DNA from: Thermoproteota archaeon
GTDB taxonomy: Archaea > Korarchaeota > Korarchaeia > B14-G2
Direction of reading: 5' to 3'
Length of the DNA stretch: 22,365 nt
Assembly (NCBI GenBank): GCA_003661385.1
Contig: QMWA01000011.1
Coordinates: forward strand, 1 to 22,365
The translations under genes and the position numbers were made by a program. Below, piece after piece: positions 2,287 to 22,365 of this stretch. Under the pieces are notes generated by a model. It was given only the letters and a program-made list of their open reading frames with translations, did not search any database and was not told the DNA's origin. Numbering within the stretch: position 1 is the first letter of the stretch; the number at the start of each line of letters is the position of its first letter.

Positions 2287-2676
2287 TCACTTAAACAATG
2301 TCACCTGACCAGAGTCCACCTCAACTAGCTTTGACTCCTCGATGTCCCTGAATAAGCTTAAAGGGATCTTATCCACTAAGGGTATTCCAGCCAGAGCACA
2401 GCCAGCAGCTACAATGCTTCCAGCTTGGTGTGCTATCATCGCTCTAGGTGCTAGACCTCTCTTGTAAAGCCTGTATATGATGTATGCTCCAACAGTGCTT
2501 CCAGCTTCGGTTGTAAACACCAGTATACGGTTAGATACCCGCTCTCCAGCTTTAGAACCCTTCAACAGGGCACCTGTCTCCGGGTCTACATCACCTAAGA
2601 ACGAGATGGAAGTATAGAGAACTAGGGGTATGCCCTTGGCTTTTCCAGGAACTATGCATCTACCGTGAATAGTCAT
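2287..2676 (-). CDS. Aconitase X small subunit (phosphomevalonate dehydratase, swivel domain)
   Basis: A 129-residue protein matching the AcnX swivel domain (DUF126). In archaea this subunit pairs with the large AcnX subunit to dehydrate (R)-5-phosphomevalonate to trans-anhydromevalonate 5-phosphate, a step in the archaeal mevalonate pathway to isoprenoid lipids. Visible family features are the ISFLGDVDPETGALL segment near residues 25-40, the Ser loop EAGSTVGAYIIY (about 56-67), and APRAMIAHQAGSIVAAGCALAGIPLVD in parts from about residue 76 to 102. The length is typical. It follows the large-subunit gene by 21 bases, the usual pairing. The assignment to phosphomevalonate rather than another AcnX substrate such as hydroxyproline derivatives rests on the archaeal context. 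Confidence 0.92.
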   Translation of the reverse strand: MTIHGRCIVPGKAKGIPLVLYTSISFLGDVDPETGALLKGSKAGERVSNRILVFTTEAGSTVGAYIIYRLYKRGLAPRAMIAHQAGSIVAAGCALAGIPLVDKIPLSLFRDIEESKLVEVDSGQVTLFK

Positions 2677-2697: not shown

Positions 2698-3881
2698 CTA
2701 CGATGTAAACTCTTGAACTATTTCTTTTAAACTAACTAACATGACTGACTTCCCTGATAGAGAGGGGATATAATGTGCGGCTTTAGCTGAGTTTGTTGCA
2801 ATGGATGAAAATGGAAGGTTCTCAATTGGTGCCACGACTGGACAAGCACCACTAAAGACCTCGACACCAGCTCTTTCTAGCAACTGAAGAATCCCAAGCT
2901 CTCGAGAATAGGCAAAGGCTTTAGGTGAGGTAAAAGCCCATATCCTTCTCCCTCTTGCGACATTTCTCCCTCTAAGCATACATGCCAGCTGCTTGAGTTC
3001 AGGTAAAGTTAGATGAGGGCACCCTATGGCAGCCACCTCAGCCTCAGATGCAGAAGATAGGGCTTCAATGACTTCAATTAGAGCTTGCTTTGTAACAGAC
3101 AGACTGTGTGGAGGCGCTCCTCGAGATGTCAGCATAGATACCCTTCCTGATGCTGCAGCAGCAGAAGCTATCAGCTTTAAAGTGCTCCATGGCAGAGCTT
3201 CTATTGCCTGCAGCTTAGCAACCTGCACATCTTGGGAGCCTATGAGGTAACCGAGAGCAGCATACTCTACGTCGCTTTGAGGCTTATAGCGTAACTCCAC
3301 TTCAATCTCTGGCTTTCTATTCTCATCAAGATGCATTCCATACTCGGGAGTCTTCCCAATGATTGCTGCTGCAATAGAGGTTATGCCGCTCTCTCGGTTA
3401 GTGTACATCTCTAGGAAGCTATTTGCAAAGCATACAGCAGAAGACTCACCCCATGCAACGTGTGCCCCAGGCCTAGTTAAGGAAATGGTGTAAGGAGTGC
3501 ATGTTAGCGTTAAGCTGGCGCCCATCTTCTGTAAGGACTTTAATACCTCAGTTTGAGCCTCTCTGAAGCTAGGAGAGTCTCCTAGGCTCCCCGGCTTCCT
3601 TAGGTCTATAGCAGCAGGATTTACTGTCGTGGGAACTTTAACTCTGACCCCACTCTCAGCTAAGTCTTTAAGTAGCTCCCTTCCAGCGTCGCCGATGTTC
3701 TTATATGAAACTGTGGCGCCTACACTATTGTGTAGGCGTTTCCACTTACATGAGCAGACTCTATGGGAATTAAGCGGGAGGCGCCAAATGCCTCTCCAAC
3801 AGAGAGGAGTACTCTCATGCACCTGTCTATGACATCCCTTTCTGAGCTTATGGGTAGTTTGTCCTGGCTTGTGAGATGCAA
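2698..3881 (-). CDS. Aconitase X large subunit (phosphomevalonate dehydratase), interrupted by a predicted 29-nt BHB intron
   Basis: This is the large catalytic subunit of AcnX-type phosphomevalonate dehydratase, a [4Fe-4S] enzyme of the archaeal mevalonate route. The body is clear: SYKNIGDAG, KVPTTVNPAAIDL, and three Cys-bearing motifs, LTCTPY, GCPHLT and SGACPVV, which are cluster-ligand candidates. The conserved N-terminus (MHLTSQDK..., EAFGASRLIPIESAHVSG) lies upstream in another frame and runs into a TAG at 3722-3720. Removing 3739-3711 by the BHB rule joins exon 1 (3881-3740) to exon 2 (3710-2698). The result is a 384-residue protein reading SAHVSGISYKNIGDAG, close to the family consensus. 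The start is TTG at 3881, with AGGTG 6 bases upstream; GTG at 3890 abuts the gcvH stop. If the transcript is not spliced, only a 53-residue peptide is made. A simple pseudogene is the alternative but fits worse. Confidence 0.88.
3711..3739 (-). other. Predicted BHB-type archaeal intron in a protein-coding mRNA
   Basis: On the minus strand the central 4-bp helix is GTGG (3745-3742) with CCAC (3716-3713). The 5' bulge is AAA (3741-3739) and the 3' bulge is AGT (3712-3710). The inner helix is the perfect 9-bp pair CGCCTACAC (3738-3730) and GTGTAGGCG (3725-3717) around an AATA loop. The outer helix has AA/TT and then ATG/CAT around one unpaired T. Cutting each bulge after its second base, as archaeal splicing endonuclease does, excises 29 nt. 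That length is 2 mod 3, exactly what is needed to join the two frames. The stop codon TAG lies inside the intron. Confidence 0.85.
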
Positions 3882-3890
3882 GAAGAGCAC

Positions 3891-4319
3891 CTACAGCTGC
3901 TCCTCGACTAGCTGCTTGTACTCCTGCGAGGAGAGAAGATTCTTCTTCTCTGATTCTAGGTTGTCTGGAGCTATCACTATCAGCCAGCCCTCTCCATAAG
4001 GGTCTCGAGATATGAGGTCATAGTTCTCTCCCTTACCGCTCTGAACCTCTTGGTTAACTTCCACCACTGTGCCGGTAAACGGCGCGTATATGTCGAATGC
4101 TCCCTTATATGACTCAACTACCCCAAAAGGGCTGCCTTGCCTTGTCTTGTCGCCTTTATTCGGTAGCATTACTCTTGTTATTTCCTCGAGCTCTTGAACA
4201 GCATATGAAGTGATACCTACACGAACTAGGTCTCCTTCTATTCTAGCCCACTCGTGGGTTTTCGTATATAGTAGATCCTCAGGGAAGTGAAGCTCTCTAT
4301 GAGCCGCCAACTTTAACAC
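3891..4319 (-). CDS. gcvH: Glycine cleavage system H protein
   Basis: A 142-residue H protein, the lipoyl carrier that shuttles the aminomethyl group between the P, T and L proteins of the glycine cleavage system. The family landmarks are YTKTHEWARIEGD (about residues 18-30), VRVGITSYA, and the lipoylation site GVVESYKGAFDIYAPFTG, in which the Lys is the attachment residue. These are followed by VVEVNQEV, the usual strand. GEGWLIVIAP near the end is also typical. The start is GTG at 4319, with TTG at 4310 as an alternative. It lies 33 bases after radA and directly before the aconitase-X gene. The P-protein genes are about 7 kb away on the same strand, and no T or L protein gene is in the window. 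Confidence 0.95.
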   Translation of the reverse strand: MLKLAAHRELHFPEDLLYTKTHEWARIEGDLVRVGITSYAVQELEEITRVMLPNKGDKTRQGSPFGVVESYKGAFDIYAPFTGTVVEVNQEVQSGKGENYDLISRDPYGEGWLIVIAPDNLESEKKNLLSSQEYKQLVEEQL

Positions 4320-7543: not shown

Positions 7544-7596
7544 CTGAGACATAAGAGAGTATCCAGGGCCCGTAGCTCAGCCTGGATGGAGCGCCG

Positions 7597-7611
7597 CCCA
7601 AGTGGGTGCAT
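7597..7611 (+). other. tRNA-Ile intron 1 (15 nt, position 29/30)
   Basis: The central helix is GCGC (7591-7594) with GTGC (7606-7609), including one G-U pair. The 5' bulge is CGC (7595-7597), cut after 7596. The 3' bulge is ATG (7610-7612), cut after 7611. The inner helix is only CC/GG around an AAGT loop. This is a very small intron in the anticodon stem, a non-canonical site. Confidence 0.8.
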
Positions 7612-7619
7612 GCCTTATA

Positions 7620-7666
7620 AGGGGCTCCCCGGTACACAAATACATGTCCCCCCGGGGGGCTAAGAC
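7620..7666 (+). other. tRNA-Ile intron 2 (47 nt, position 37/38)
   Basis: The central helix is CTTA (7614-7617) with TAAG (7661-7664). The 5' bulge begins TAA (7618-7620), cut after 7619, and the 3' bulge is ACA (7665-7667), cut after 7666. The intron body can pair 7624-7630 with 7654-7660, which leaves a slightly relaxed 5' bulge. This is the standard archaeal tRNA intron site. Confidence 0.78.
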
Positions 7667-7709
7667 AGCCGGAGGTCGGGGGTTCAAGTCCCCCCGGGCC
7701 CACTCCTTT

Positions 7710-11079: not shown

Positions 11080-11165
11080 AGCCCCGTGGTGTAGCTGGCC
11101 AAGCACGAGTCCTTGAATGCCGGACTTTGGATCCGGAGACGCCGGTTCGAATCCGGCCGGGGCTA
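11080..11165 (+). tRNA. tRNA-Gln(UUG) with a 12-nt BHB intron in the D arm
   Basis: The acceptor stem AGCCCCG (11080-11086) pairs with CGGGGCT (11158-11164); the discriminator is A and CCA is not encoded. The T arm is GCCGG/CCGGC around TTCGAAT, and the anticodon arm is CCGGA-CUUUGGA-UCCGG with anticodon UUG (11127-11129). Between the D arm and the anticodon stem there are 12 surplus bases, removed as an intron at 11106-11117. The mature form is 74 nt. The A1-U72 pair and overall sequence are typical of archaeal tRNA-Gln. The last three bases overlap the stop codon of gcvPB on the other strand. Confidence 0.93.
11106..11117 (+). other. tRNA-Gln intron (12 nt, position 24/25)
   Basis: The central helix CAAG (11100-11103) pairs perfectly with CTTG (11112-11115). 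The 5' bulge is CAC (11104-11106), cut after 11105. The 3' bulge is AAT (11116-11118), cut after 11117. The remaining inner part is one G-C pair with an AGT loop. The mature D stem becomes GTGT/GCAU. This is among the smallest introns that a BHB can hold. Confidence 0.82.
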
Positions 11166-12698
11166 CTTGCCACCCTTCAGGTACATCCTCCATGACAACA
11201 CTGGCCTTTTAGCTGCCTGCGCTTCATCAACCCTCCTAACTGATGTGTTATGGGGGGCAGTTAGGACAGATTCAGGAGAGCTATAGCATTCCTCAATTAT
11301 CCTCTTCATAACCTCATAGAATAGATCCAGATCCTGCTTAGTTGCAGACTCTGTAGGCTCTACCATCATAGCCTCACGTACTATCAAGGGAAAGTATACA
11401 GTCGGTGGGTGTATGCCAAAGTCTAAGATTCTTTTGGCAATATGAGCCATTCTTACTCCAGTCTCCCTCCTAACTTTCCTCAAGCTAACTGTAAACTCAT
11501 GAGCCCTTAGCCTACCTCCATCAAAGGGGACTTCTATACACTCTATAGACTTGAGCTTCTTAAGCAAGTAGTTTGAGTTGAGCACAGCTATGCCAGAGAC
11601 TTCTCTTAACCCCTCCAAGCCTAGGGCCTTAATGTATACCAGCGCCTTGAGGAGTACTGGGAAGTTACCGAGATATGGATGCACTCTCCCAATCGACTTG
11701 GGCCCACGATCCTTAAGCCTATAGACACCCTTCTCGCATACGATGTCTGGTGAAGGCAGATACTCAGCTAGCTCTTCAACTGCCCCAACTGGACCTGCCC
11801 CAGGGCCTCCACCGCCATGTGGCGTCGAGAATGTTTTATGGAGGTTGAGGTGAGCTATATCAACTCCCAGCTCGGAGATCTTAACCCTCCCGACTAAGGC
11901 ATTCAGGTTTGCTCCATCATAGTACACTAGACCTCCAACATCATGAACTATTTCACATATCTCCTTAACCCTATGCTCAAAGATCCCTAGAGTATTAGGA
12001 ACTGTAAGCATGATCCCAGCAGTTCTACGCGATACTGTCGCCTTAAGAGCCTCAATATCTACTGTACCATCCTCTCCACTTGGTATTTTGACCACTTTAA
12101 AGCCGCACATAGCAGCGCTGGCAGGATTAGTGCCGTGTGCAGAATCAGGGATCAGCATTTCATCTCTGTCTTCACCACGTAGCTTATGGTACTTCCATAT
12201 CATCTTACACCCTGTATACTCTCCGCCAGCACCAGCAAAGGGCTGGAGTGTAAAGTCATGTAGCCCAGTTATCTCACAGAGGAGCTTCTTAAGCTCATAT
12301 AGTATCTTCAGGCAGCCTTGAATCCACTCTTCTGGAGCATGTGGAGAAGCCATCTGAACCTGCTCAAAGCGGGCTATACGCTCACATATCTTGGGATTGT
12401 ACTTCATCGTGCATGAGCCCAACCAGTATGGGCCGCTATCGACACCATAGTTCATCTGGCTAAGCCTAGTGTAATGCCTAACAACCTCTACCTCACTGAC
12501 CTCAGGTAAGGCTAGCTCCCTCCTAAGGACGCTTGGAGGCACTAGCTTGCTTGGTTCGCCTACTCTTGCTTTAACTCTCTCTTCTATCGGAGAGAACTTG
12601 AATCCAACCTTACCACGCTGGGAGAGCTCGAATATAGTGGGCTCTAGCAGCTGCTCACTACTTCTCCACCTAGCTTGAGTACAGGGCTGAGGCTTCAA
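11163..12698 (-). CDS. gcvPB: Glycine dehydrogenase (decarboxylating) subunit 2
   Basis: A 511-residue PLP-bearing half of the split P protein of the glycine cleavage system. It decarboxylates glycine and loads the aminomethyl group onto lipoyl-GcvH. The PLP lysine is visible in DIAHLNLHKTFSTPHGGGGP (about residue 284). Other conserved parts are GSCTMKYNPK (about 92-101), LQPFAGAGGEYTG and PDSAHGTNPASAAMCGF. The start is ATG at 12698, overlapping the stop of gcvPA by 4 bases, so translation is coupled. Its N-terminus is a little long compared with many archaeal versions, but the ARWRSSEQLLEPTIFELS part fits the family. Its stop codon overlaps the last three bases of tRNA-Gln on the opposite strand. 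Confidence 0.96.
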   Translation of the reverse strand: MKPQPCTQARWRSSEQLLEPTIFELSQRGKVGFKFSPIEERVKARVGEPSKLVPPSVLRRELALPEVSEVEVVRHYTRLSQMNYGVDSGPYWLGSCTMKYNPKICERIARFEQVQMASPHAPEEWIQGCLKILYELKKLLCEITGLHDFTLQPFAGAGGEYTGCKMIWKYHKLRGEDRDEMLIPDSAHGTNPASAAMCGFKVVKIPSGEDGTVDIEALKATVSRRTAGIMLTVPNTLGIFEHRVKEICEIVHDVGGLVYYDGANLNALVGRVKISELGVDIAHLNLHKTFSTPHGGGGPGAGPVGAVEELAEYLPSPDIVCEKGVYRLKDRGPKSIGRVHPYLGNFPVLLKALVYIKALGLEGLREVSGIAVLNSNYLLKKLKSIECIEVPFDGGRLRAHEFTVSLRKVRRETGVRMAHIAKRILDFGIHPPTVYFPLIVREAMMVEPTESATKQDLDLFYEVMKRIIEECYSSPESVLTAPHNTSVRRVDEAQAAKRPVLSWRMYLKGGK

Positions 12699-22295: not shown

Positions 22296-22365
22296 GCTCC
22301 GGTAGTGTAGCCAGGCCAAGCACGGCGGCCTTTCGAGCCGCTAACGCGGGTTCAAATCCCGCCCG
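22296..22365 (+). tRNA. tRNA-Glu(UUC), cut by the window end
   Basis: The acceptor 5' strand is GCTCCGG (22296-22302). The D arm is GTGT...GCAC, and the anticodon arm GCGGC-CUUUCGA-GCCGC has anticodon UUC (22332-22334). The T arm is GCGGG/CCCGC around TTCAAAT. The window ends at position 68; the last three bases, CCG, match the start of the acceptor 3' strand. No intron is seen, unlike the other two tRNA genes here. Confidence 0.95.

Follow-up and report, generated by a model that had tools for sequence, protein, structure and literature searches.

The window, as we use the term here, is the whole 22,365-nucleotide stretch that was analysed; it constitutes an entire contig (C11) of a 1.74-Mb archaeal MAG assembled in 206 contigs and 91% complete. 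This source genome is labelled G000, and G006, G007, G009, G020, G021, G025 and similar labels denote other genomes of its class. On the minus strand of the window lies a gene for the AcnX large subunit that matches the Pfam family PF04412 in two frames, with profile positions 2–56 at 3720–3878 and positions 47–400 at 2713–3717. These two matches bear out the initial annotation, which had placed the conserved N-terminus and the body of the protein in different frames. They are also the only PF04412 matches in the genome, leaving a single, split copy; a second intact copy, which would have refuted the intron reading, was sought genome-wide by profile search and none was found. The features of the locus are listed below in the order in which they are transcribed.

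3891–4319, minus strand: glycine cleavage H protein gene, the upstream neighbour on this strand, with a stop codon directly adjoining the alternative AcnX GTG start at 3890
3740–3881, minus strand: predicted AcnX exon 1, from a TTG start at 3881 (or the GTG at 3890), ending SAHVSG; Pfam AcnX positions 1–53
3742–3745, minus strand: 5' strand of the central helix, GTGG, in exon 1
3739–3741, minus strand: 5' bulge, AAA; predicted 5' splice site 3740/3739
3711–3739, minus strand: predicted BHB intron, 29 nt, ACGCCTACACAATAGTGTAGGCGCCACAG; the standard cuts fall between bases 2 and 3 of each 3-nt bulge
3717–3738, minus strand: inner hairpin, 9 bp, CGCCTACAC/GTGTAGGCG with an AATA loop; stem 3738–3730 / 3725–3717
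3720–3722, minus strand: TAG stop of the unspliced AcnX frame, inside the intron
3713–3716, minus strand: 3' strand of the central helix, CCAC, in the intron
3710–3712, minus strand: 3' bulge, AGT; predicted 3' splice site 3711/3710
2698–3710, minus strand: predicted AcnX exon 2, from (I)SYKNIGDAG to the stop
2287–2676, minus strand: AcnX small (swivel) subunit, the next gene downstream; Pfam PF01989, and NCBIfam PRK03955 below that model's cut-off

Read along the minus strand, the break has the order GTGG-AAA-CGCCTACAC-AATA-GTGTAGGCG-CCAC-AGT, with the two bulges on opposite strands. The complete BHB proposed earlier at this position, built of a 4-bp central helix, two 3-base bulges and a 9-bp inner hairpin, is confirmed, and its exon-side outer helix consists of just two A-U pairs. 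Because the outer helix is so short, the motif as modelled is a minimal (near-relaxed) BHB and not a full hBHBh' structure. The predicted fold has a z of -6.1, and at 37 °C the central and inner pairs form with a mean probability ≥0.96, whether 30, 75 or 150 nt of flank are included; at 75 °C, the model gives the central helix a probability of ~0.5–0.6.

Excision of the 29 nt by the standard cuts (3739 to 3711) generates a 384-aa open frame that contains SAHVSGISYKNIGDAG and restores the family consensus, as had been anticipated from the letters alone. The spliced protein matches PF04412 over its full length (positions 1–400) at 381 bits, compared with 330 and 40 bits for the pieces taken alone. 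Left unspliced, the message stops at the intronic TAG (3722–3720), with a product of 53 aa from the TTG at 3881, the length previously stated, or 56 aa from the GTG at 3890. Using a profile built from 37 AcnX relatives, we also scored 2,626 possible removals, a test that is independent of RNA structure. The best three are all 29-nt removals cut inside both bulges (394.2, 394.2 and 393.5 bits), the standard cut being the third of them, and the best removal of any other length reaches 387.4 bits. In the alignment of the spliced protein with the 37 relatives, the junction falls without a gap, at a residue that is I or V in nearly every sequence. The comparison of related AcnX genes that the initial annotation had called for found them intact: the insert is absent from the homologues, and every other AcnX match above the cut-off is stop-free. 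Searched against the genome contigs, the spliced protein recovered homologues of 34–41% identity only, all of them distant. The AcnX frames of other class members lack the insert and are longer, at ~480–610 aa, possibly because they include a fused small subunit. In a quick tree, the spliced protein sits on a long branch next to these class members, with a support of 81.

To rank BHB-like sites and estimate chance occurrence, we devised a simple BHB score. Across the two strands of the window, the AcnX site has the top score among ~1,580 BHB-like sites. Counted over both strands, 871 kb of G000, approximately half of the genome, contain only 8 short-intron sites that reach the AcnX score, from which we estimate at ~1e-5 the chance that such a BHB would fall at the exact AcnX break, with a 3-nt tolerance. 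The AcnX site also comes first in a scan of 871 kb that requires the best coding frame both before and after the BHB. The other top sites of the splice scan were inspected by eye and rejected, being either gene boundaries or uninterrupted ORFs in a different frame (L084 5773, L086 11441, L081 12677, L081 11338 and L091 1480, and likewise L079 19242, L080 13808, L226 4445 and L215 4564).

The body of AcnX encoded by exon 2 is stop-free, and the spliced protein has cysteines in the motifs TCTPY, GCPH and GACPVVAP. In the archaeal phosphomevalonate dehydratase of A. pernix (PMDh), the Fe-S cysteines are C122, C297 and C356 (PMC10040528). We take the three AcnX cysteines to be the equivalents of these residues on the basis of the motifs, without an alignment to A. 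pernix PMDh. Since these three presumed Fe-S motifs are kept and a separate small swivel subunit (PF01989) is intact beside the large-subunit gene, AcnX is likely a phosphomevalonate dehydratase, although its substrate has not been shown.

We consider it very probable that the 29 bases are a real BHB intron removed by the tRNA-splicing pathway, a judgement made without RNA data and from one assembly. The nascent AcnX pre-mRNA would fold into the computed BHB, a two-domain endonuclease would cut each bulge between its second and third bases, and RtcB would join the exons into what is, by sequence, one 384-aa reading frame; both enzymatic steps are inferred from the presence of the genes and from the known tRNA/cbf5 pathway. 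The claim central to the initial annotation, that the AcnX large-subunit gene contains a BHB intron, is supported by the unique copy, by the exact restoration of length and frame, and by relatives free of the insert. It gains further support from other BHB-split protein genes in G000 and from an endonuclease with a loop proposed to be substrate-broadening, both described below. One could instead envision that a short palindromic insertion broke the gene and left a scar that is never spliced. The AcnX hairpin does resemble small palindromic elements, and RNA data that could speak against a scar are lacking. Such an insertion, however, would have to have created a complete BHB with bulge cuts that yield the exact AcnX family length, in a gene whose body remains stop-free and keeps the CTPY, GCPH and GACPVVAP motifs, with no second AcnX copy found and the small subunit intact next door. 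In addition, the inner hairpin is unique: a genome-wide search that allowed up to 3 mismatches found no further copies. We therefore give a scar only a slim chance.

AcnX is not the only protein-coding gene of G000 that is interrupted in this manner. The cbf5 gene is split by a 22-nt BHB intron (L076 639–660, plus strand, contig C4; also L085 6638–6659), whose removal restores KVGHCGTL-D-PPASGLLP, with the cut falling after the first base of the catalytic Asp codon. A cbf5 pre-mRNA intron is known from Desulfurococcales and Sulfolobales, where it has been attributed to the tRNA-splicing endonuclease (Watanabe 2002; Yokobori 2009, PMC2738675); this crenarchaeal intron, 16–44 nt in size, sits at the same Asp-codon site as in G000 (PMC2738675). 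An insert at the cbf5 Asp codon is also present in five other genomes of the class (G006, G007, G009, G020 and G021; L135, L136 and L138–L140), the codon is read through in 17, and one locus (G010) is uninformative. The G020 insert forms a very strong 33-nt BHB. The insert of G006 is just 16 nt, with a relaxed structure. The best-sequenced genus of the class has an intron-free cbf5, like Korarchaeum, whose cbf5 is reported to lack the intron (PMC2738675).

The third interrupted gene is pcm, which encodes protein-L-isoaspartate methyltransferase and is split near profile position 60 in G000, G006, G007, G009, G020, G021 and G025. In G000, a 20-nt intron with a BHB lies at the frame break (L081 5004–5023, minus strand, contig C2), and BHB introns of 20–29 nt occupy the same site in all seven genomes (L081 and L205–L210). 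Each has the central helix CGCC/GGCG, and removal, read from the sequences, yields TISAPHMV or TISAPHIV. Compensatory changes are found at six of the nine inner pairs across the seven genomes, and 94% of the inner-helix cells are paired, versus 83% in shuffles, of which 0 of 500 match the observed value, and 33–49% for slid partners. This pattern shows that selection acts on the structure of the pcm intron, and it is the strongest evidence that mRNA BHB introns are processed in this lineage. Several genera share the pcm intron, with its compensatory changes, whereas the AcnX intron is a singleton so far, and comparison supports the former better than the latter. All three G000 introns (AcnX, cbf5 and pcm) are phase 1 and lie inside highly conserved motifs. 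In 391 kb of G009, we found no further convincing BHB-split gene beyond pcm.

The splicing endonuclease of G000 is one protein of 367 aa with two endonuclease domains, in which the catalytic region is present, although activity has not been shown. Its C-terminal half is nearest to the crenarchaeal catalytic subunits (A. pernix 3p1z, E = 2.8e-32). This fused two-domain architecture differs from the hetero-tetramer of the Desulfurococcales/Sulfolobales cbf5 system; korarchaea are reported to have endonucleases of the alpha4 or alpha2 type. The loop specific to crenarchaea is present in the G000 enzyme; its K-P-K aligns to K44-P45-R46 of A. pernix, residues that are reported to be important in cleavage and have been proposed to broaden the specificity (PMC12397907). 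Because the AcnX outer helix has only two A-U pairs, cleavage would probably require a broad-specificity endonuclease, and the K-P-K loop fits this need. The loop reads K-P-K/R in six of six endonucleases from intron-bearing genomes versus one (G013) of 19 from genomes without introns (L041 and L176–L199), nearly all intron-free relatives having K-P-E/D/Q at this position. This association rests on related sequences and is suggestive only: the 19 intron-free endonucleases form one side of a tree branch (support 70/86), and the loop difference may therefore reflect a single event. The RtcB ligase gene is present in G000, but with a 1-nt frameshift close to the end of contig C181 (L077 3535–3550, minus strand), in the G run GACGGGTCTGC. 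Inserting one G into this run restores ELDGVCIEGVNWA, and the frameshift is probably an error of sequencing or assembly; if it were not, the gene for the ligase would be broken. With a single missing G and no BHB at the break, RtcB was not counted among the intron-bearing genes. The frameshift implies that the assembly of G000 is not error-free.

With the other introns and the enzymes in hand, three further explanations of the AcnX break can be weighed. The first accepts the intron and adds an extension made in the initial annotation, namely that splicing is regulated and switches AcnX and isoprenoid synthesis. An unspliced mRNA would indeed yield only the 53-aa fragment, but every such intron truncates its product if unspliced, no sequence feature points to regulation, and the other two introns reside in unrelated genes, for tRNA/rRNA pseudouridylation and protein repair. 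The extension remains an untested speculation that we think improbable. Less plausible still is programmed ribosomal frameshifting or bypassing, in which the hairpin would act as a stimulator and full AcnX would be made from unspliced RNA. A stable hairpin does overlap the in-frame stop, yet 3-nt bulges on opposite strands are needless for frameshifting and defining for the endonuclease; moreover, ~10 extra residues would fall in a gap-free alignment block, and cbf5 and pcm of G000 have the same anatomy. Finally, an assembly or sequencing artefact, which the 206 contigs and the apparent 1-nt deletion in the RtcB G run might invite, can hardly be entertained, since a 29-nt non-copy insertion with a base-exact BHB corresponds to no known error type and the BHB splits of cbf5 and pcm in G000 recur in independent genomes.

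Excision of a genuine BHB intron thus remains our reading of the AcnX gene, for which covariation of the intron itself is unobtainable because there is one MAG and no close relative in the comparison set. The class, which is probably korarchaeal, comprises several genera with cbf5 and pcm mRNA introns; the AcnX intron is an additional one, found in this lineage only so far. A possible but distinctly tentative history is that mRNA BHB introns have been repeatedly gained and kept in the class, those of cbf5 and pcm being ancestral to several genera and that of AcnX a later gain. As the AcnX and pcm introns of G000 both begin with ACG and end with AG, the AcnX intron may have been gained by reverse splicing of an existing intron. 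If repeated gain is true, splicing would be a permanent part of how these cells express their genes.

The open-access papers name cbf5 as the sole coding-region archaeal BHB intron, together with one Haloferax 5'-UTR case. We found no other coding-region archaeal BHB intron and no published report of a pcm intron in the open-access literature, the subscription literature being outside the scope of this search; to our knowledge, and within that scope, the pcm intron is unreported. The AcnX intron thus adds to the known, very small class of BHB introns in archaeal protein genes. Compared with the cbf5 intron of Desulfurococcales and Sulfolobales, whose site is identical to that of the cbf5 intron in G000, the AcnX intron has a different host gene, one genome so far and no cDNA. 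HVO_1309 of Haloferax volcanii carries a BHB intron in its mRNA that is cut by the splicing endonuclease (PMC7714728). Like the AcnX intron, it is mRNA-borne; unlike it, it lies in the untranslated leader and therefore leaves the reading frame unchanged. The BHB introns of archaeal tRNA and rRNA share the motif and presumably the enzymes, but the AcnX host RNA is an mRNA, so the precision of splicing decides the reading frame. AcnX, pcm and cbf5 would together make three host genes and extend the range beyond Desulfurococcales and Sulfolobales, suggesting that archaeal protein genes are less rarely hosts to BHB introns than one well-known example implied. Gene finders break up such intron-bearing genes in archaeal genomes, and this lineage offers a comparison of mRNA-intron gain, loss and enzyme specificity.

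Many tRNAs of G000 also appear to be intron-bearing. At the edge of the window, a tRNA on the plus strand (22296–22365) is truncated by the contig end. Neither ARAGORN nor Rfam at its gathering score detected an intron-rich tRNA at 7569–7703, plus strand, which has the pairing ends GGGCCCG/CGGGCCC and the T arm GGGGGTTCAAGTCCCCC, with ~60 extra bases between. ARAGORN calls positions 11080–11166, plus strand, tRNA-Ile(aat), which resembles a tRNA-Gln(TTG) with an intron of ~8–18 nt before the anticodon stem, and many trial excisions turn the call into Gln(ttg).
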